Of a stretch of DNA of 42,503 nucleotides, positions 1 to 33,244 are shown one piece after another; the first letter of the stretch is position 1, and each line of letters opens with the position of its first letter. The position numbers and the translations under genes are program-made. The notes under the pieces were generated by a model that was given only the letters and a program-made list of their open reading frames with translations, was not told where the DNA came from and did not search any database. The DNA is from a virus. Where the stretch lies: the IMG/VR virus record IMGVR_UViG_3300025645_000146, positions 1 to 42,503 of that record, one strand, 5' to 3'.

Positions 1-18
1 TCTACAATTAACGCACAA

Positions 19-489
19 CTAGAAAGTGAAAGAACCAAGAGGTACAGTAATTTCTGTTGTATTGCCTTCTTCATCTGTAATTATTAATGTTACCTTATCG
101 TCTTCTACTCTGTATTCTATGGTGTTTCCTTCTAATTCTAAAGTACCAAAGTCAGAAGCAGTCTCACCAAACAGGCTATCTACTAATTGTCTTGAAAGCT
201 GGGCATAGATGCGTGATTCCAAATTCCTGATGAACCGGGCCAATGTAGTATTTTCAGCCTCTCTCTCAAGGTCTTCTGTGTATGCTCTAAGTTCTTCTCG
301 TATTGCTTCTTTTCTGTTGAACTCTTGATTTTCTATAGTCAGATAGTGACTAGATGTGCCAACACCAGAAAAGCTTGGGTTCTTAAACTTGTGTGTCATT
401 TCATCTGCTTGTACAGATAAAACCACAAACATGACAATAATCATGGAAGCTATCAGCAGTATTTCATCAGGTCTTTTTAGATTTTTCAT
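19..489 (-). CDS. csgF-like: CsgF-like curli assembly protein
   Basis: 156 aa. In curli-producing bacteria CsgF is a small secreted protein that caps the outer-membrane pore CsgG. Residues 9-28 form a signal-peptide-like hydrophobic stretch with a plausible cleavage after SVQA. The mature start then reads DEMTHKFKNPSFSG, closely following the CsgF pattern (MTxxFxNPxFxG) that inserts into the CsgG channel. A helical middle (about 82-108, LARFIRNLESRIYAQL) and a beta-rich end (about 122-150, IEYRVEDDKVTLIITDEEG) also match CsgF order and length. The start overlaps the upstream gene by 23 bp and has an AAGGA ribosome site. It is the last gene before the left edge, so csgG could follow just outside. 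Family call from motif reading; role in the phage is inferred. Confidence 0.8.
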   Translation of the reverse strand: MKNLKRPDEILLIASMIIVMFVVLSVQADEMTHKFKNPSFSGVGTSSHYLTIENQEFNRKEAIREELRAYTEDLEREAENTTLARFIRNLESRIYAQLSRQLVDSLFGETASDFGTLELEGNTIEYRVEDDKVTLIITDEEGNTTEITVPLGSFTF

Positions 490-718
490 CTTGTTCCTTC
501 ACCTCAATAACTGTGTTCACTTTACTCTGTAGTCTAATCATATCTTGATCGAGTAGTCTAAGCTGATCTGTCAAACGTATGATTGTGCTTTTCATGTCTT
601 GTACAGCTGGGTCGATCTTGTTGGTAATCGTTTGCCATACAAAGTAAACAAAGTAACCCAGTCCAACTACCATGACTACTGGAAAACCAAATTCTGATAT
701 TATCTTTACTATATCCAT
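467..718 (-). CDS. Small holin-like membrane protein with coiled coil (copy 2)
   Basis: 83 aa. One N-terminal membrane segment (about residues 9-30, FPVVMVVGLGYFVYFVW) is followed by a charged helical tail likely to form a coiled coil (about 40-75). It resembles the product of the gene just upstream: both share I-x-E-x-G-x-P near the start, YF followed by V in the membrane segment, and DMIR in the tail. This suggests a tandem duplication. The start codon overlaps the upstream stop (TAATG), indicating translational coupling. Topology and position beside holin- and XhlA-like genes suggest a role in lysis or membrane permeabilisation, but no family is firmly recognised. Confidence 0.72.
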   Translation of the reverse strand: MDIVKIISEFGFPVVMVVGLGYFVYFVWQTITNKIDPAVQDMKSTIIRLTDQLRLLDQDMIRLQSKVNTVIEVKEQDEKSKKT

Positions 719-1011
719 TAATCTCTTCTGGCATCTATCTTGCCATCCTCTACAAAGTTCTCAGCTCTAGCTATTCTGTCTAAGTCTGGTGGTAGATTAA
801 GAGCACTAGAAACACTTGTATCTATACGAATCATATCATTATTCATAATAGAAGCTCTGGTGATGAGCATTTTGGTAATTCCTTGGACAGTTTTGATTTC
901 GCTAATCAAACCATCCATAAGTTGTTTCATAACTAAAAATATAAAGTAAGCCATGATTAAAGCACCAGCTATGGGCAAACCTAATTCAGCGATCAGATTG
1001 AACGCTTCCAA
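718..1011 (-). CDS. Small holin-like membrane protein with coiled coil (copy 1)
   Basis: 97 aa, with an apparent TTG start (1011-1009) preceded by GAGGA; no upstream ATG is available. A membrane segment covers about residues 12-30 (LPIAGALIMAYFIFLVM), followed by a helical, coiled-coil-like tail containing DMIR. The architecture and spaced motifs match the downstream 83-aa protein, so the two look like duplicated paralogues. It sits between a two-helix holin-like gene and the CsgF-like gene. A membrane or lysis function is inferred from topology and context only. Confidence 0.72.
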   Translation of the reverse strand: MEAFNLIAELGLPIAGALIMAYFIFLVMKQLMDGLISEIKTVQGITKMLITRASIMNNDMIRIDTSVSSALNLPPDLDRIARAENFVEDGKIDARRD

Positions 1012-1013
1012 GA

Positions 1014-1340
1014 CTAATCCTCGCCTTTAAACTTTTTGCTTTGTCCTGATGTACCAGCATAAATGCCAAATACTGCCGCCATTGCACCTACAACAACTGA
1101 CACTAAAGCAGATTGTTCTAAGTTGGGTTCAGGTATAGTCATAAACCAAGTAACTACTTTGTATAGTAGTAGGATGTAGACGCTGACAAAAACTCTAGGA
1201 AAAATTCGCCAAGCGTCTACGGTTTTAGCTAGGTGTATCCATTTATGAAATGGATTGACTGATAGATAGTTGGGTGAAACTTCTATGTCTAGTTCTAGCT
1301 TCTTTTTTATAGCTGGTTCGATTTTGACTTCTTCTTCCAT
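1014..1340 (-). CDS. Two-helix holin-like membrane protein
   Basis: 108 aa. A charged N-terminus is followed by two predicted membrane helices: about residues 50-67 (VFVSVYILLLYKVVTWFM) and 79-97 (ALVSVVVGAMAAVFGIYAGT), then a short basic tail. Class II holins have this size and two-helix layout, and very similar WRIFPR...VTWFM proteins are common in marine phages. It starts three bases after the XhlA-like gene ends and precedes the paired single-helix proteins, so the whole stretch reads as a lysis or membrane cassette. No strong ribosome site is seen, so translation may depend on the upstream gene. Function inferred. Confidence 0.72.
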   Translation of the reverse strand: MEEEVKIEPAIKKKLELDIEVSPNYLSVNPFHKWIHLAKTVDAWRIFPRVFVSVYILLLYKVVTWFMTIPEPNLEQSALVSVVVGAMAAVFGIYAGTSGQSKKFKGED

Positions 1341-1523
1341 CTATAAAAACTTTGTGAGAACGATAGCTCCTACCATAAACGGGTAAACACCCCAGAGCAT
1401 ATTCTCTAATTTTTTAAACTTTTCAGATCCTTCATCAAGACGCTTTTCTATATTTTGATAACGTATAGCACACTCTTTTTCGTGTGAACTAATTTGATGA
1501 AGTGCGTCTTTTGCTGTTGCCAT
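1341..1523 (-). CDS. XhlA-like holin-associated protein
   Basis: 60 aa. Residues 1-40 are a charged, probably coiled-coil helix (HEKECAIRYQNIEKRLDEG) and residues 44-59 a C-terminal membrane anchor (GVYPFMVGAIVLTKFL). This cytoplasmic helix plus tail-anchor layout is that of XhlA/hemolysin-type proteins that act with holins in Gram-positive phages and are also common in marine phages. Its ATG overlaps the stop of the 50-aa gene upstream (TAATG). Assignment rests on length, topology and neighbours. Confidence 0.68.
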   Translation of the reverse strand: MATAKDALHQISSHEKECAIRYQNIEKRLDEGSEKFKKLENMLWGVYPFMVGAIVLTKFL

Positions 1524-1675
1524 TATTTTTTTTCTACTTCTACGGTAGTGTAGGCTTCGTTTACGTCAGGAGTAGACTTGTCATCTGCAACAAACTTACC
1601 GTCTTCTGTCCTGGCTCTAACTGTTTTTTCTTCAACGCCTCTAACTTTTTGCCACATTTTTTTTAACCAGTTCAT
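1523..1675 (-). CDS. Small hypothetical protein (50 aa)
   Basis: 50 aa, from ATG at 1675-1673 to TAA at 1525-1523. Both ends overlap neighbours through TAATG junctions, strong evidence that this short frame is translated. The protein is hydrophilic, starting MNWLKKMWQKVRG and then acidic, with no signal peptide or membrane helix. The amphipathic N-terminus could associate with membranes. Family not recognised. Confidence 0.7.
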   Translation of the reverse strand: MNWLKKMWQKVRGVEEKTVRARTEDGKFVADDKSTPDVNEAYTTVEVEKK

Positions 1676-1872
1676 TACTTCTCTCCGATCTTCTTAGTAA
1701 TTGATTCAACTTGGGCTTCTTCTTGTTGAGAAGCTTCTGCCATTTCTTTAATCTGTTCCATAGTTTGTTTTCTAACCGCAGCTATGGCTTCTATTTCAGC
1801 ACCTTTCCAAGCACCTCTTTCTGTTGCTACGTCTAATATTTGTAGCACGTTTACAAAGTATTGTTGTTCCAT
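1675..1872 (-). CDS. Hypothetical helical protein
   Basis: 65 aa, predicted almost wholly helical, rich in Glu, Gln and Ala, without membrane segments or Cys. The ATG is preceded by AGGATAAAATT, and the stop overlaps the next start (TAATG). It lies between the tail-fibre block and the lysis-like cassette and may be a small chaperone or virion accessory protein. No family recognised. Confidence 0.68.
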   Translation of the reverse strand: MEQQYFVNVLQILDVATERGAWKGAEIEAIAAVRKQTMEQIKEMAEASQQEEAQVESITKKIGEK

Positions 1873-1876
1873 AATT

Positions 1877-2221
1877 TTATCCTAATGTTTTAGTGACTAA
1901 TGTTGGTGTAATTTTTTCTGCTATCTGTGCATCTAATTCTGTTTTTAAAGCTGCAACAGTATCAGCAGTCAAAGCAGTTTCTACCCAACCTTGTACTTTA
2001 GCAGCATCAAGGCTAGACCAGTTTGTAAAACTAGATAGATCAGAGGTATCTAAACTTTGGCTTCCGATAGCTCTAGCTGTTTGTGGAATGCCCTCTGAAT
2101 CATTATTAGAATTATCAGTTGCAGTTAGTTTCCAATGCACTTCATGCACAACATTAGATTTACTGCTTTTTGTTGGGTATACATCACAAGTATTTACATC
2201 CCAAGTATAGTTTATTGCCAT
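1877..2221 (-). CDS. Conserved phage protein downstream of the tail fibre (DUF7936-like)
   Basis: 114 aa. It begins with a beta-rich pattern (INYTWDVNTCDVYP) and has a W-K-L-T-A-T strand, a V-x-GWVETAL helix and a C-terminal DAQIAEKITPTLV segment. This arrangement (MAI-x-Y-x-W, CYP-like motif, GWV, Q-I-x-ITP-x-V near the end) is shared by a small family found next to tail genes in cyanophages and other marine phages; I recall it as DUF7936. Its ribosome site GGATAAGAAT overlaps the end of the fibre gene. Probably a virion or fibre accessory protein; function unknown. Confidence 0.72.
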   Translation of the reverse strand: MAINYTWDVNTCDVYPTKSSKSNVVHEVHWKLTATDNSNNDSEGIPQTARAIGSQSLDTSDLSSFTNWSSLDAAKVQGWVETALTADTVAALKTELDAQIAEKITPTLVTKTLG

Positions 2222-2225
2222 ATTC

Positions 2226-4280
2226 TTATCCTTCTAAAGTTTCAATTCTAGTTTTTAAGTCTTCTATTATTGTTTGTTGTTCTTGCATAGCTTTTACAAG
2301 TAATGGAGTAATTCTTCCGTAATCCATAGTTTGTGCGTTTACTGTTCCATCATCTTTTACAGCATCTTTTTCACCTGTAACTGCATCAGAAAAAACTTCT
2401 TGTACTTCGTGTGCTATAAAACCTTCACTTGATATGCCATGATCTTTCCAATCAAATTTAACTGGTTTTAAATTATTAAGTCTGTCTAAACCATTTTCTA
2501 TAGGTCTTACATTTTCTTTTAATCTGTAATCTGATGTGGTGTTAAATGCTGTATTTACATTAGTACAATGTATTTCTCCAATTAAACCTCCTCCTTGATC
2601 CTCTGATTTAAAAAACTTTGCGGGTTGATAATTGTGATTACCATTAGCTTGTGCATGATAGCCTACTCCATTTGAAGAAAGATTTGATATTCTAAGACCC
2701 GTAGTAGTCGTGTGACCTATATCAATAAAATAACCAGGATTAGTTTGTCCTATTCCTATTTTTCCATTCCCTACTACTCTTGCTAACTCTGTACCTGCAT
2801 TTATCCATCTTTGTACTGTAGTTCCAGTAGTGCTTGTTTCTACATCAAGTCCTCTATCAGTACTAGCTGAACCCGCAGTATTGTGAAATGTTACTAATGT
2901 TCCTGAATGAGAACCATCAACGTGAAGTTGGCTGTCGGGATCAGTTGTTCCTATGCCTACTTGTCCATCACCTCTAATAGACAGCCTTTCGTCAGCAACC
3001 GCATCCCCCGCAACAGAACCTAAGAAGAAACCCATTCTTCTGTCGGCTAGTGTATTATCATTAAAAGACATGATGTACATATCTTGTTGATTACCAGAAA
3101 ACTTAATTGCGTTATAAACACCATCACCTGAACCTGAATTACCTAAAACTAAAGTTTCATTATTATTAGCTAGAGTTACATTTGTCTCAGTATGAGCCAT
3201 TTGTATTGCAAATCTACCTGATGGAGTCGCAGTTCCTATGCCTACAGCATTACCACCAGCATTAACAAAAATCATATTAGCTTCGTCATTCGATTCAACT
3301 CTAAAGTCTACATCTACTGAACCTTCATTAAATACTGTGGCTGCTGGAAGTACAGACATCCTGTTTACTAATGTTCCAGCTACCATAGAGTTTATGTGTA
3401 ATATTCCGTCTTCTGTGCCATCAGAAGCATCATCTATATATCCAGCTATTGTTGCAAAGTTGGTAACATTTGCACCATCATCATTAGCGTTAAAACTAAT
3501 TTGTCCTATAGCATCATTATCTGCTGGAGAACCAGAAGCTCTCCATAAAGTAAGTTGTGGTCCTACATTAGAATCTGCATCTGTAGATTTAAGCACTAAA
3601 TTTTCTGAGTTATCAGCAACAGTAATTGTCGCTCCAGCAGAAGAAGTTATAGCACCATCTACTTGTAACGTAGAAGCCATATCAACCGCACCATCTATAT
3701 CTACTATATCTAAGTTAGATGTACCATCCACGTCAATATCACCTGATATATCAAGAGAAGTAGCTGTTAAAACACCTGTAACACCTAAAGTACCGCCTAT
3801 AGTTGCATCATCTGTAACTGTTAGATCGTCTTGTACTTTAAGGTCTACTACAGAAAGACTAGCAAAAGCATCAACTACCGCAGCTCCACTACCAGCTCCA
3901 TCTAGGTAAACTGCTTTAGTATCACCCGGTGGTATTGTTATATTGGCTCCAGAGCCTTGTGAGATTATGATGTTTTGTGAACCACTTGTACCATTTTCGA
4001 TAAAGTGCATCCTATTGAGTGTATTAGGTGCGATTGTAATTGTGCAAGCTGAGTCTAATGTACCTGTGTATTCAATGTACATCGCTCTACCGGGGTCAGT
4101 TGCTCCATCTGCTACTGTTGTGGTGTGAGTATCTGCGTTAGTAGTAATACCTTCTGTGCCATAACCTAGAGCTTCTCCAATCAGCTCAAGATTCAAATTC
4201 GTCACAACGCCCCAATTTCCCGACTCATCTCCAGTCGCCATCTCATTTAGTCTGAGATCATTTACATATGTACTTGCCAT
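2226..4280 (-). CDS. Tail fibre with C-terminal S74 intramolecular chaperone
   Basis: 684 aa receptor-binding fibre. The N-terminus (LNEMATGDESGNWG, about 12-25) matches the virion-attachment part of many marine phage fibres. The middle has repeated beta-strand units such as VGIGT...P and DGQVGIGTTDPDSQLHV, typical of trimeric beta-helical shafts. The last about 100 residues are a peptidase S74/endosialidase-type chaperone: SDYRLKENV supplies the candidate Ser583-Lys588 self-cleavage dyad, followed by L-K-P-V-x-F-D-W and a final coiled coil (EQQTIIEDLKTRIETLEG). The chaperone would trimerise the fibre and then be cut off. The gene has an AGAGG ribosome site and leads into accessory and lysis genes. 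Confidence 0.93.
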   Translation of the reverse strand: MASTYVNDLRLNEMATGDESGNWGVVTNLNLELIGEALGYGTEGITTNADTHTTTVADGATDPGRAMYIEYTGTLDSACTITIAPNTLNRMHFIENGTSGSQNIIISQGSGANITIPPGDTKAVYLDGAGSGAAVVDAFASLSVVDLKVQDDLTVTDDATIGGTLGVTGVLTATSLDISGDIDVDGTSNLDIVDIDGAVDMASTLQVDGAITSSAGATITVADNSENLVLKSTDADSNVGPQLTLWRASGSPADNDAIGQISFNANDDGANVTNFATIAGYIDDASDGTEDGILHINSMVAGTLVNRMSVLPAATVFNEGSVDVDFRVESNDEANMIFVNAGGNAVGIGTATPSGRFAIQMAHTETNVTLANNNETLVLGNSGSGDGVYNAIKFSGNQQDMYIMSFNDNTLADRRMGFFLGSVAGDAVADERLSIRGDGQVGIGTTDPDSQLHVDGSHSGTLVTFHNTAGSASTDRGLDVETSTTGTTVQRWINAGTELARVVGNGKIGIGQTNPGYFIDIGHTTTTGLRISNLSSNGVGYHAQANGNHNYQPAKFFKSEDQGGGLIGEIHCTNVNTAFNTTSDYRLKENVRPIENGLDRLNNLKPVKFDWKDHGISSEGFIAHEVQEVFSDAVTGEKDAVKDDGTVNAQTMDYGRITPLLVKAMQEQQTIIEDLKTRIETLEG

Positions 4281-4856: not shown

Positions 4857-4978
4857 TAACTTATTCCTTCAAGTTTGGCTTTAACGACTTCGAGATCTTC
4901 TTTTACTGGTGTGGTAATCCACTTGTAAGCCAGCATGTAGTCAATCTTATCTATGCAGAATTGTATGTCTTCATTCAT
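4856..4978 (-). CDS. Small hypothetical protein (40 aa)
   Basis: 40 aa, ATG at 4978-4976. It overlaps the end of the 578-aa gene by 8 bp and its TAG overlaps the next GTG start (TAGTG), so it is tightly coupled on both sides. The product is a short amphipathic helix pair (IDKIDYMLAYKWITTPVKED). No family recognised; tail-assembly or fibre-accessory role only by position. Confidence 0.6.
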   Translation of the reverse strand: MNEDIQFCIDKIDYMLAYKWITTPVKEDLEVVKAKLEGIS

Positions 4979-6707
4979 AATCGGCCTCTTCTAGCTCAAT
5001 AAATATATCATCATTGTAAGTTTGTGCATTTTCCTGTAAACTCTGCGGTATGGAAACAACGTATTTTTCTTGGGAAAGATCAGCGGCTGTCATAGTCGGC
5101 AGTGAAGATAATCGCTTTGGATTCTTTTTACCTGTGCTTAAAGAAGAAGGTGGCTGGAGAGAAGCTACACCTGACCAAGTAAAAGACTTTTTCATTGACG
5201 GCTCTAGGTTGTCAAAGTCTGAGTTTGAAAACATGTTTGGTGTTATTGGCGACAATCTTCCTGATCTTCCAGCATTAACATAGCCACCTCTGTTAAACCT
5301 TTCTATAATATCTTCATAGAATTTAGGATCTATTAATTTTCCTTTGGGTTCGAAGATATCTTTCATTCGTTTTTCTAATCTAAAACCTTCTTTTTCAATG
5401 GCTGCTACACTGGAACCAGACGGCAAACCAAAGTTAGTTTTTCTAAAAGCTTCATAAATATCGTGTGCTTCGTGTGCACCATCTAGCATAGGCCTAGTGA
5501 TAATACCTATTTCGCCTATGATGTTTTCGCCGTTTGCACCTGTAAATTGTACGTTTAGCTTTCGATCTAAATAACCAGATTTTTTCATCAAGACTCTTTC
5601 ACCGTCCACTGTTGGAAAAAGTTTGGCAATGCGTTCAGCAATTAATTTTTCTTGTTGTGGTGTTTCTACAACAATTCTAGTTCTAATTGGGTCTGTGATC
5701 TGTGAAAAATCACCTTCGTATTTTTGATTTACTTTTTCAATCATTCTGGGCATGAGCTTAACTTCACCTACAGGAAAACCTGTGAGCTCATCAATTTCGC
5801 CTGTGGCTTTGCCACCTACAGGATTAAAGCCTTGGTCTACACCTAAATCATCAGCTACTTTAGCGACTTGTTTCTGAAACTCTGGATTAAGTCTTTTGGC
5901 CCTTTCAAACATTTGTGGTGCACTAGCAATGCCTTCTTGGTGTTTGTTAAAGTTAAATTTAAACTGTTGTTCTGTTTTGTTGCCGAACTGTCTGACGGGT
6001 CCTTCGAAGGTAGGATTGCCTTTGGTTGGCAACAACTTGTTTGCATCGTTCTGTCTTGTAACGTTCTTGTTGTTTTTTCTTATGAAGTCGTAAGTGTTGT
6101 AATCTTGTGCATTGTCAAAGATTTTTACAGGTATGCGCTTTACTCCACTGAGTTCAAGAGCTTCTAAAGTAGACTTACCGCCCAGCTGTGTAAAAGTGCC
6201 GTCTGTGTTTTTAAGCACTTCTATGGGTTGACGTTTATTTTGCTGAACCCCTTTGTAAGCGCTGCCTGATGCTGATTTGTTTAGGAGCTCTGTTGCCTGA
6301 TCTACTCGTTTTTTTTCTGATTTTACAACATTGCCTTCAAGATCTTTAGGTCTGTTGATGTTTTTTATATCAACCACTTCATCGGCTTTTGTTAAATCTA
6401 TACCTTTAAGCAATCCCTTTGGACCTCGCGCTAGTTCTCCAAACAAAGGTATAGCACCTAATACAGACAAACCAGCAATACCGCCATATAGTGCGCCTTT
6501 GCCGTATTCACCTTCTGCTATATTCCTGACTGCATCGCGTCCGTACTTACCAGCTGCTACTAAGTCCATGGCCATGCCCGGTGGGGTAAAGCCAGCTGCT
6601 ATCTGGCCAACTAAAGGTACGTTCTCTTCGTAACCCTCAACAGCACGGTCCAGAATATCTTTCTCTGGTGCAAAGATGTTTACGTTGTCTGATAAACCTT
6701 GAGCCAT
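4971..6707 (-). CDS. Probable virion-borne protein with ParB-like and RelA/SpoT-like domains
   Basis: 578 aa. Residues about 30-90 are Gly/Ala-rich and hydrophobic (VGQIAAGFTPPGMAMDLVAAG; IAGLSVLGAIPLFGE), as in ejected virion proteins. About 135-200 resembles a ParB/sulfiredoxin-type fold (RQPIEVLKNTDGTFTQLGGK...GVKRIPVKIF). About 316-425 resembles a RelA/SpoT nucleotidyltransferase: K-x-x-R-x-x-EK, ITDPIRTRIVVETP (Asp339), SGYLDRKLNVQF, then GEIGIITRPMLDGAHEAHDIYEAFR (Glu399). The usual EIQ/EVQ is EIG, so nucleotide synthesis is uncertain. RFNRGGYVNAG follows at about 470-480. Such domains occur in phage polyvalent and MuF-type proteins injected with DNA. The start lacks a good ribosome site. 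Confidence 0.75.
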   Translation of the reverse strand: MAQGLSDNVNIFAPEKDILDRAVEGYEENVPLVGQIAAGFTPPGMAMDLVAAGKYGRDAVRNIAEGEYGKGALYGGIAGLSVLGAIPLFGELARGPKGLLKGIDLTKADEVVDIKNINRPKDLEGNVVKSEKKRVDQATELLNKSASGSAYKGVQQNKRQPIEVLKNTDGTFTQLGGKSTLEALELSGVKRIPVKIFDNAQDYNTYDFIRKNNKNVTRQNDANKLLPTKGNPTFEGPVRQFGNKTEQQFKFNFNKHQEGIASAPQMFERAKRLNPEFQKQVAKVADDLGVDQGFNPVGGKATGEIDELTGFPVGEVKLMPRMIEKVNQKYEGDFSQITDPIRTRIVVETPQQEKLIAERIAKLFPTVDGERVLMKKSGYLDRKLNVQFTGANGENIIGEIGIITRPMLDGAHEAHDIYEAFRKTNFGLPSGSSVAAIEKEGFRLEKRMKDIFEPKGKLIDPKFYEDIIERFNRGGYVNAGRSGRLSPITPNMFSNSDFDNLEPSMKKSFTWSGVASLQPPSSLSTGKKNPKRLSSLPTMTAADLSQEKYVVSIPQSLQENAQTYNDDIFIELEEADYE

Positions 6708-6744: not shown

Positions 6745-7560
6745 TTAATGGTGAGTCTCGTATTTGTTGTCTTGCTCGTCCAATAGACCTTGGAACTTTC
6801 TGTTTAAGATCTTAGCGACCTTGTGATAAGGGAAGTCTTCGTAACCTTCGTGCAAGCTGCCCACTTGTCTGGCAATCTTTCTAGGACCTAGACCTCTTTG
6901 TCTAAGTTTGTAGATGGTTTTAAGAACCGCTTGTTCTTCGGGTATTGGTATCAATTTGGTGTGTCGTCTGGACCCGTGGTCCTCGTACTCTTTTCTGTAA
7001 CCAAAAGGCACATGGCCACCAATCGAGTAACCTTTCTCGGCCCAAGCTATCTTGCCTCCTGACAGTCTGGTCTTAATCATTTCACGCTCGAACTCTGCGA
7101 ACTGAGCTAGTGTTGCGACCAGCTGTCTATTGTTAATTCTTACCATGTCCATCTTAGCTGCCAAACCTGTCTCTTGTTTCTCTTTGGGTAACACAACAGG
7201 TGTGTCGCCAAACATTTCACAGAAGTACAGGGTTATGCCTGTGTCTTCTAGCGTAGGTATCATGTTGACCATCTCGGTAAACGACCTAGCCAATCGATCC
7301 AACTTTGTGGTTACTATCACATCATGTTGGTCCATCACGTCTGTGAGGCCACGCGATCCCGGTCTTTCGATAAGATCCTTCATGCCACTCACACCAGCGT
7401 CTACAAAGAATTCGTCTACAGGTCTGTTGAACTTGTTTTGCACAAAAGCCTCTATGGTCTTCTTCTGCTCATCAAGAGAGCTGCCGTCCGAGACTTGTTG
7501 CTCGGACGAAACTCTGATGTAACCGTAGATGTTATTGATCTGCTTGATTGGTGTAATCAT
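6745..7560 (-). CDS. Serine recombinase (resolvase/invertase family)
   Basis: 271 aa site-specific recombinase. The N-terminal catalytic domain has YIRVSSEQQ with the nucleophile Ser18 and Arg16, DAGVSG, and KLDRLARS (86-93), all diagnostic of serine recombinases; FEREMIKTR at 157-165 starts the long helix. Residues about 168-255 form a short recombinase domain (GGHVPFGYRKEYEDHG, PIPEEQAVLKTIYKLRQRG, LGPRKIARQV). It is longer than a classical resolvase (about 185 aa) but far shorter than large serine integrases (450 aa or more). It is last in an early operon behind two small genes; its ATG overlaps the upstream stop (ATGA) and uses GGAGG. It could integrate, resolve multimers or move a cassette; no attachment site was identified. 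Confidence 0.93.
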   Translation of the reverse strand: MITPIKQINNIYGYIRVSSEQQVSDGSSLDEQKKTIEAFVQNKFNRPVDEFFVDAGVSGMKDLIERPGSRGLTDVMDQHDVIVTTKLDRLARSFTEMVNMIPTLEDTGITLYFCEMFGDTPVVLPKEKQETGLAAKMDMVRINNRQLVATLAQFAEFEREMIKTRLSGGKIAWAEKGYSIGGHVPFGYRKEYEDHGSRRHTKLIPIPEEQAVLKTIYKLRQRGLGPRKIARQVGSLHEGYEDFPYHKVAKILNRKFQGLLDEQDNKYETHH

Positions 7561-30986: not shown

Positions 30987-31355
30987 TCATGTATACCATT
31001 GCTCCAAATCCCAGCCATAGACTGGACCCGTTATGTTTACTGTAACATTGCCATCTAAGGTTACGGTTACAGCTCCTACAGAAGCTTTCGCTTCTAAACC
31101 AAATTGTGGACCTACTGTTAGATTTACCCACTCGTCACCATCATATACTTGCAACTCTTCTGTTGTGGTGTTCCATATAACGTCACCAGCAGTAAAAGAA
31201 CTAGAATTACGTTCAACGTCTGTATATTGAGGAGTAGCAGTAGTGTCAAAACGACCTAGATTCAACTCCATGATACGAACCAAGCGATTGAATGTATCTA
31301 TAGATACCATTTCGCCTTGAGCTATGGGCAGTCTGGTTTCTAGTAGCTTGCCCAC
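30987..31355 (-). CDS. Small tail/head virion protein with beta-repeat end
   Basis: 122 aa. Helical start (GEMVSIDTFNRLVRIMELNL), then a beta domain (FTAGDVIWNTTTEELQVYDG) and a final repeat-like EAKASVGAVTVTLDGNVTVN that matches the unit of the 181-aa repeat protein (4311-4856). It starts at the stop of the tail-hub gene (31355). Probably a virion component attached to the hub. Confidence 0.72.
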   Translation of the reverse strand: MGKLLETRLPIAQGEMVSIDTFNRLVRIMELNLGRFDTTATPQYTDVERNSSSFTAGDVIWNTTTEELQVYDGDEWVNLTVGPQFGLEAKASVGAVTVTLDGNVTVNITGPVYGWDLEQWYT

Positions 31356-33244
31356 TATCTACGACCTGAACTTTGTACGTCTAAACGTGTTGCCCCAAGC
31401 CTCCACCTGTAGTCTTTACGACTAGCAGTATTGTCATCATCTGACTCAAACCTAAGTACCAACTGCCTACTTCTGGTTCGCAGACTAGAGAAAGTAGATG
31501 TATTCGTTACTTGAGTAGTAGAGTCTGTAGTTAAGCTGTCACCATTAAAGTTTCTACTTTTAACTACTATATTCATGGCTGGTGATGGCGCTGTGCCTGA
31601 CTGTGTATCAAACTTTATATCAGGTATAAGCTTTTTAACAAAAGCAAAGTTCTCGCCATCAGCTATGTCTATGTCTGCTGATTCTATAAAGACACCATCC
31701 ATGGCATTGTCATCATCATTAAATCCTGTTTCATGTAAGAACAAACAACTTGTAGAAGAACTTGTGCCTGATGCTATAGGTTTGTTTTCAATACCAGCAT
31801 CTAGCCAAGCATATCTAACTAAAGAACCTATGCTCCAAGAATTTTCTTCGTAGTTGTAAATAACATAACGTGAAATTTCATCAGTTCCATCTTCTAAGGA
31901 TGGATAGAAAAACCACACTTCTGCAAATTCAGTATTAACAGCGACATGACATTTGTAAGCTTGAGATACGTTTAGATCAGAGAATACATAGTCTTGTACT
32001 GAACAAGGTAATTTTTGTACAGAACCATTGTAAAAATAGAAAGCATTTTTGGACATAAAGAATACACCTGTAGGTGAGTTACCAAATGCTTTAGGTCCTA
32101 TCAAACCAGCACCTTCGTTAATTAAATTAACTGCAAATATAAGAGGTGGTCCTATAAAGGTCATGCTATACAAACTGGTATCTGTCCACACCAATACTTC
32201 TTGTCTTGATTTTAGACCGCCAACTATAAGAGAACCGCTAGACAATCTAACATCACCAGCACTATTTGTGCTCAATGGCTCAAACTCTAAAGCATTTTCA
32301 GAGTCACTAAAGGCTATAAGCATAGGATCTACAGCACCAGTCCTAGCACTACCGCTTATTGGGTCAGCTCCTAATACTATTAAATGTCGATCTGTTTCTG
32401 ATGTAATGACCTGTAAACCTACAGTGGGTACTAAGTTAGCACCAGATGTACCTGACAAGCTGACAGCTCTTGTAGACAGGCCATCGTTCTCTACCCATCT
32501 GTAAATACTGCCACCTCTAGGATTTATAATTAAATCTTCACCAAAGTTATCATGTGTCCACAGTCTTAATTGTCCAGTATCAGACAAAGCATTTGTAGAT
32601 CCAAATGTACTAGCAGACCATGCTCCAGAACCCCAACCAGCAGCTTGTACATAAACATCTAAGCCTGAGTTTATTTGGTAAACACCATCAACTCCAGAAC
32701 CACCATTACCACTGTCACTACTGTTTGCAGTAACAGTATCTCCGCTAGTGTCTTTGGCTGTAAAAGTAAAGGTGTTGGCATTAGCCACACCTGTAATCTT
32801 ATATTCTTGGTTTAAAACAGCAGCTGTTATCAGGCCACCTAGTGAAACAGAACCAGCTATAGTTACAAAGTCACCCACTACTGCTCCATGACTTGAATCA
32901 GTAGCTGTTATTAAAGATGAACCATCAGTAGCAGCGAAAGTTATGCCATTAGTGGTTGTAGCTCTTATAGGAGTAATATCGTTGTAACTACCACCATTAT
33001 CTATGTAGTATTTAGATGTAGTGCCAAAACCAAGATAGCGTGAACCACCGAGTGAGATCCAACTGTGTAGTGCTCTGGCTGTGTCAAAAAATACGTTGGT
33101 GCTTTTTTTTGCCCAACCACCAACTTTTTCTACACCGCCTTTTCTGAAACGTACTAAATTACCATCGACCCAACCATTTTCATTAGAATAGTTAGTTTCT
33201 TCTTTGTTAATTCCCGGCTTAAAATTAAATTTTGTGAGTGGCAT
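31355..33244 (-). CDS. Tail hub / DNA-stabilisation-like protein (P22 gp10-like)
   Basis: 629 aa. The N-terminus (FNFKPGINKEETNYSNENGW, then NLVRFRKGGVEKVGGW) is characteristic of a family of podovirus tail proteins related to P22 gp10, which form the tail hub or nozzle under the portal. The rest is beta-rich with segments such as GASNLVPTV-like strands and EVWFFYPS, consistent with a beta-propeller. Neighbouring gp4-like and adaptor genes support a P22-type tail machine. Exact fold not verified. Confidence 0.75.
   Translation of the reverse strand: MPLTKFNFKPGINKEETNYSNENGWVDGNLVRFRKGGVEKVGGWAKKSTNVFFDTARALHSWISLGGSRYLGFGTTSKYYIDNGGSYNDITPIRATTTNGITFAATDGSSLITATDSSHGAVVGDFVTIAGSVSLGGLITAAVLNQEYKITGVANANTFTFTAKDTSGDTVTANSSDSGNGGSGVDGVYQINSGLDVYVQAAGWGSGAWSASTFGSTNALSDTGQLRLWTHDNFGEDLIINPRGGSIYRWVENDGLSTRAVSLSGTSGANLVPTVGLQVITSETDRHLIVLGADPISGSARTGAVDPMLIAFSDSENALEFEPLSTNSAGDVRLSSGSLIVGGLKSRQEVLVWTDTSLYSMTFIGPPLIFAVNLINEGAGLIGPKAFGNSPTGVFFMSKNAFYFYNGSVQKLPCSVQDYVFSDLNVSQAYKCHVAVNTEFAEVWFFYPSLEDGTDEISRYVIYNYEENSWSIGSLVRYAWLDAGIENKPIASGTSSSTSCLFLHETGFNDDDNAMDGVFIESADIDIADGENFAFVKKLIPDIKFDTQSGTAPSPAMNIVVKSRNFNGDSLTTDSTTQVTNTSTFSSLRTRSRQLVLRFESDDDNTASRKDYRWRLGATRLDVQSSGRR

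Follow-up and report, generated by a model that had tools for sequence, protein, structure and literature searches.

A csgF gene in a podophage genome fragment probably marks the upstream end of a phage-borne curli secretion module

The window analyzed here, a stretch of 42,503 nucleotides from a marine phage record, carries a csgF gene at its left edge. This locus most probably forms the upstream edge of a minimal type VIII (curli) secretion module carried by an HTVC023P-type podophage, of which the window is a fragment. CsgF-CsgG modules of ocean phages have been published before, and apart from the details of the interface and of the empty sites the system has already been described (PMC7029224, PMC9004378, PMC9599517), so that the present locus is a well-confirmed further example.

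RESULTS

The gene at 19..489 on the minus strand is complete and encodes a protein of 156 amino acids. The product matched the Pfam CsgF family (PF10614) over profile positions 3 to 132 of 132, with 69.9 bits against a cut-off of 25.8 (E value of 3e-19), and PHROG 35372 with an E value of 4.5e-44. A family search of the whole record returned this gene as the single CsgF-family match, and an independent CsgF search of 14 control genomes matched E. coli alone. The identity proposed in an earlier sequence-only reading was therefore borne out, and at the level of sequence comparison the gene is confirmed as a genuine CsgF, beyond chance. A signal peptide is predicted at residues 1 to 28 (406..489, minus strand), with cleavage at VQA^DEM; column variability ends at A28/D29, and this position aligns with the A19^G20 site of E. 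coli CsgF. The N-terminal CsgG-docking segment of the mature protein, DEMTHKFKNPSFSG, follows at residues 29 to 42 (364..405, minus strand). Across 50 diverse phage CsgFs, the signal-peptide columns were variable while F35, P38, and F40 were invariant, and the C-terminal beta segment is also conserved; both ends of the CsgF pattern noticed in the first reading, the mature start after a signal peptide and the beta segment, thus held up. Searched against the PDB, the phage CsgF profile had E. coli CsgF as its top match, over the N-terminal segment only and with an E value of about 0.08-0.1, and a phmmer search of the PDB with the single CsgF gave no match. An AlphaFold model (pLDDT 73, pTM 0.36) places two long helices ahead of the sheet. 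A Foldseek search of the PDB with this model gave no match at E <= 0.001, and solved CsgF was absent among the 50 matches listed.

The partner gene, csgG, had been expected just past the left edge. It is indeed the neighbor of csgF, but it starts already inside the window: its 5' end occupies 1..74 on the minus strand, overlaps the 3' end of csgF, and is cut by the window edge after 24 codons, which by direct translation of 74..1 read MKKAIQQKLLYLLVLSLSSCALIV, a lipoprotein signal with the lipobox LSSC. As the window stops inside csgG, the remaining module genes, including the curlin-like gene, were read from the contigs of relatives. An exact copy of the window's terminal 45 nt was found in eight viral contigs, all of which run on into a complete CsgG of 266 to 286 amino acids. 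Extension to the left, proposed earlier as a check, was provided by contig L002, which is 94.8% identical to positions 1 to 3737 of the window and runs on through a complete csgG, a 247-aa curlin-like gene, and FecR (371 aa) into a CHASE2-cyclase gene cut by the contig end. Profile searches, suggested alongside, recovered both partners, CsgF as given above and CsgG in the near relative L003 (PF03783, E value of 3.7e-51), where FecR (2e-13), CHASE2 (8e-23), and a cyclase domain (3e-18) were also matched in Pfam. The phage CsgG profile matched solved CsgG with an E value of 3e-72, and the lipobox cysteine was invariant in 32/32 phage CsgGs.

The gene order was followed in 152 viral loci, which remained after three duplicates were removed from 155 fetched by CsgF similarity. 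Among the loci with room to show each step, csgG was next to csgF in 146/146, a curlin-like gene came after csgG in 118/118, FecR after the curlin in 97/97, and a cyclase after FecR in 51/57; since the loci were chosen on csgF and many are closely related, these counts measure cohesion and not independent events. The median dN/dS was 0.08-0.15 for each module gene, with a value of 0.12 for csgF among relatives, which indicates purifying selection. The same order, plus a second curlin, was observed in HTVC008M, a myovirus of SAR11, and in Melnitz, a myovirus of OM43.

In the E. coli complex, residues F24, F26, and F31 of CsgF touch CsgG, single mutants break the interaction, and the contacts on CsgG include N148, Q168, D170, F206, and F208 (PMC7304575, PMC10133297). 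When the phage CsgF residues were mapped onto the E. coli numbering through the HMMER match, F35, P38, and F40, invariant in 50/50, corresponded to F26, P29, and F31. The equivalent of F24 is a His in 40 of the 50 proteins and Trp, Phe, or Gln in the others. On the side of the pore, N148, D170, F206, and F208 were kept in all 32 phage CsgGs, Q168 was replaced by Arg in all 32, and the eyelet residues Y66, N70, and F71 were not conserved. The conservation of interface residues on both sides argues that the phage CsgF and CsgG would still dock, contrary to what was suggested for Melnitz (PMC9004378), and the changes at F24, Q168, and the eyelet indicate that the properties of the phage pore may differ. 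Following that suggestion, a phage CsgF that has diverged, no longer pairs with CsgG, and acts alone would account for a helical middle domain that, as published, is unlike its E. coli equivalent (PMC9004378) and for an AlphaFold model without a PDB match; yet among the phages neither the N-terminal docking residues nor the CsgG residues opposite them vary, and csgF was never found without an adjacent csgG (146/146), and we consider this reading highly improbable, the least likely of those weighed here.

Next to csgG, the putative export substrate belongs to a phage curlin-like family whose curlin repeat has invariant Q, G, and N positions. Curlin_rpt was matched by 16 of 37 family members, and the L003 curlin, searched by itself, gave no Pfam match. 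Models derived from the phage proteins matched genes beside csgF/csgG in 5/5 alphaproteobacterial loci with QxGxxN repeats, at E values of 1e-7 to 1e-17 computed within a small set. The AlphaFold model of the curlin is all-beta (pLDDT 84) and had no significant match in a Foldseek search of the PDB. The gene has a dN/dS of 0.09, as expected under purifying selection. In Melnitz, two proteins (L084:7309-8028 and L084:9087-10103) match Curlin_rpt above the Pfam cut-off, and the second module curlin of HTVC008M (L083:9002-10327) carries a PA14 domain ahead of clear curlin repeats. The C-terminal tail of FecR (L003:2682-3797) ends in a curlin-like I-x-I-x-Q pattern, with similar tails in HTVC008M and Melnitz; it was rejected as curlin-like, with an hhalign probability of 6%.

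The constancy of the substrate bears on a proposal that the open CsgG channel imports scarce nutrients or cofactors, with curlin and FecR being secondary (PMC7029224, PMC9599517). Phage and alphaproteobacterial modules are reported to lack CsgE, the gate, as well as CsgD/CsgC (PMC9599517), which speaks for an open channel of this kind. However, CsgF is unnecessary for uptake and is nevertheless conserved with its docking residues, and the curlin is itself under purifying selection. An uptake pore therefore seems very unlikely to us.

Upstream of csgF lie two small membrane genes of one family, termed TM97. The first (467..718, minus strand; PHROG 18771, E value of 4.5e-25) overlaps the start of csgF by 23 nt and encodes 83 amino acids with one transmembrane segment and a coiled coil; its PHROG holin match is weak (0.0033). 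Its 97-aa paralogue (718..1011, minus strand; PHROG 18771, E value of 1.2e-24) was found in only six of 50,697 phage records, all with csgF. Members of the family measure 83-116 aa, with a single membrane segment at the N terminus and a coiled coil, and csgF is preceded by such a gene in 123 of 138 loci. A 108-aa membrane protein (1014..1340, minus strand; PHROG 10198, E value of 7.8e-21) belongs to the flank outside the curli module proper; it is the usual podophage neighbor of the 97/83-aa pair, with relatives in L002-L006 and in the module-less L378 and L403. The sequence-only reading had placed csgF after holin-like genes. Two small membrane genes are indeed there, but PHROG holin was matched by only 4/15 family members (best E value of 2.6e-5) and Pfam returned no holin family for the upstream genes, so that the holin-like label is plausible but weak. 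A "histidine kinase" has been said always to precede the module (PMC9599517). Judged by position and size, that gene is probably a member of the TM97-type family; the upstream small genes (83-116 aa) gave no kinase domain (HisKA, HATPase) in Pfam, and a resident small membrane (holin-like) gene is the more likely identity. As strict parts of the curli system, the small membrane genes were rejected, since nine loci keep them without csgF/csgG.

These nine loci came from a second set, chosen on the small upstream membrane genes, in which csgF/csgG followed in 205 of 214 loci (71/73, 69/71, and 65/70 in three sets that possibly overlap). In L403, L378, L271, and L257, spanin and/or lysozyme genes come after the membrane genes, with no curli gene; a tail gene takes that place in L413, L417, and L418, and a desaturase-like gene in L285 and L288, with csgF/csgG absent. 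The nine module-less relatives likely mark the insertion site of the module. Going by these gene arrangements, the curli genes appear to behave like cargo, as a block that some phages have next to their resident genes and others lack.

Within the window, no homologue of a lysozyme or spanin was found, in agreement with the first reading that no endolysin is seen. The window is, however, a 42.5-kb fragment from a phage group whose genomes measure about 60 kb, and the lack is explained by this, because close relatives carry lysis genes a few kilobases past the left edge: in L003, L004, and L005, which are 86-89% identical to the window across that edge, genes for Rz-like and Rz1-like spanins, a nuclease, and a phage lysozyme come after the cyclase. 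Among the 37 loci with both flanks, lysozyme or spanin genes lie near the module in 20, in several arrangements, and in the other 17 no lysis gene was recognized nearby by the models used.

The first reading had offered egress, lysis, or secretion as possible roles of the pair. As a lysis gate, CsgG-CsgF would form an ungated late pore in the outer membrane that passes small molecules or lysis factors and times lysis together with the holin-like proteins. The module does adjoin the holin-like genes, lysozyme or spanin genes are adjacent in 20/37 loci, and a lysis-timing role has been proposed for Melnitz CsgGF (PMC9004378). We nonetheless consider a lysis gate unlikely. A curlin substrate is always there (118/118), 17/37 loci lack a recognized lysis gene nearby, the relatives encode a lysozyme and Rz/Rz1-like spanins of their own, and module-less relatives keep the holin-like, spanin, and lysozyme genes in place. 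Rz/Rz1-like spanins are the usual tools for disrupting the outer membrane. Egress of virions through the pore is ruled out by its published size, a constriction of about 1.5 nm and an inner diameter of 4 nm against a 55-nm capsid (PMC7029224, PMC9004378). A variant in which the curli pore works within the lysis programme, as a late outer-membrane channel for which the curlin fibre would be the plug or timing element, strikes us as quite unlikely; if it were true, an amyloid secretion system would be working as a lysis-timing device. Since module-less phages keep their lysis genes, cargo is favored over a lysis gate.

The capsid protein of the window is 61-64% identical to those of HTVC023P, 023Pt_psg01, and the freshwater phage DSL-LC04. 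The GC content is 40%, versus 35% in HTVC023P, and no named phage was matched when 25 kb of the window was searched by megablast. Among 297 genomes from the order to which a Pelagibacter MAG belongs, the only strong full-length CsgG lay on the phage-like contig of that MAG, and four others had weak partial matches; with no full-length CsgG elsewhere in the sampled Pelagibacterales, the phage pair would complement no host system there. Curli modules also occur on Maricaulis, Pelagibacter, and Synechococcus MAG contigs that resemble phage contigs (L162, L163, L164, L169, and L170), and L162 and L163 have lysozyme or spanin genes beside the module, a contamination risk for claims of host curli. 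Curli matches in such "bacterial" contigs were not accepted as host curli, since in several of them phage lysis genes adjoin the module. Elsewhere in the window, a 578-aa open reading frame (4971-6707, minus strand) has a sub-threshold RelA/SpoT match (E value of 0.013), and another (6745-7560, minus strand) resembles a serine recombinase/resolvase by eye. A tail gene lies at 31355-33244 (minus strand), about 31 kb upstream of csgF, and its homologue in L003 (L003:7138-9003) comes directly after the lysozyme; backbones with nearly identical csgF thus differ in gene order.

DISCUSSION

In the module that we favor, the CsgG lipoprotein would assemble into an outer-membrane pore, and exported CsgF would plug its N terminus into this pore, as in E. 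coli. The pore may then export the curlin-repeat protein of the next gene, which could build an amyloid-type fibre on the infected cell, with FecR and the CHASE2-cyclase as putative accessory or sensory parts. The module is placed as a block behind one or two holin-like genes that are resident, and often just before spanin/lysozyme genes, a position that suggests late expression as cargo. What the phage would gain is the least certain part: host aggregation, superinfection exclusion, or an altered cell surface may be considered, and no clumping was seen in Melnitz-infected cultures (PMC9004378). Ocean phages would then carry what looks like a complete kit for amyloid secretion, one that is missing from their likely hosts. 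To the published picture we add that the docking surface appears to be retained and that the module is present or absent as a block, often next to lysis genes; together with the upstream "kinase" as a probable resident small membrane gene, these points favor a surface-fibre cargo over a lysis gate.

Phage CsgF/CsgG were first reported in 2020 (PMC7029224), the lysis-timing idea followed in 2022 for Melnitz (PMC9004378), and in the same year Wittmers et al. described the full module in HTVC023P-type podophages, along with its cross-family transfer and ocean-wide distribution (PMC9599517). The E. coli CsgG-CsgF pore (PDB 6L7A, 6LQH, and 6SI7) is the solved counterpart, as the CsgG profile match (3e-72) indicates; the phage pair differs from it in the altered CsgG eyelet, Q168R, and the F24-to-His change in CsgF, and the phage CsgF model in the two long helices predicted before the sheet. 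Methylophilales phage Melnitz has the same module, with curlin-repeat and FecR genes annotated in its record; the Melnitz paper states that csgA/csgB are absent (PMC9004378), but the locus encodes two proteins with Curlin_rpt matches that exceed the Pfam cut-off. HTVC008M (KC465899; PMC7029224) shares the csgF-csgG-csgB-like order, including paired small membrane genes, with 47% identity in CsgF and 45% in CsgG to the present locus, but it is a myovirus and has an extra curlin with a PA14 domain between FecR and the cyclase. The T8SS module of HTVC023P-type pelagiphages belongs to the same phage group as the window, whose capsid is 61-63% identical to those of HTVC023P and 023Pt_psg01, and it has the same order of small upstream gene(s), csgF, csgG, CsgA/B-like, FecR, and cyclase (PMC9599517). 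The window represents a separate phage fragment, and in contrast to that description its upstream genes, whose equivalence to the published one is probable, show no kinase domain and persist in module-less relatives.
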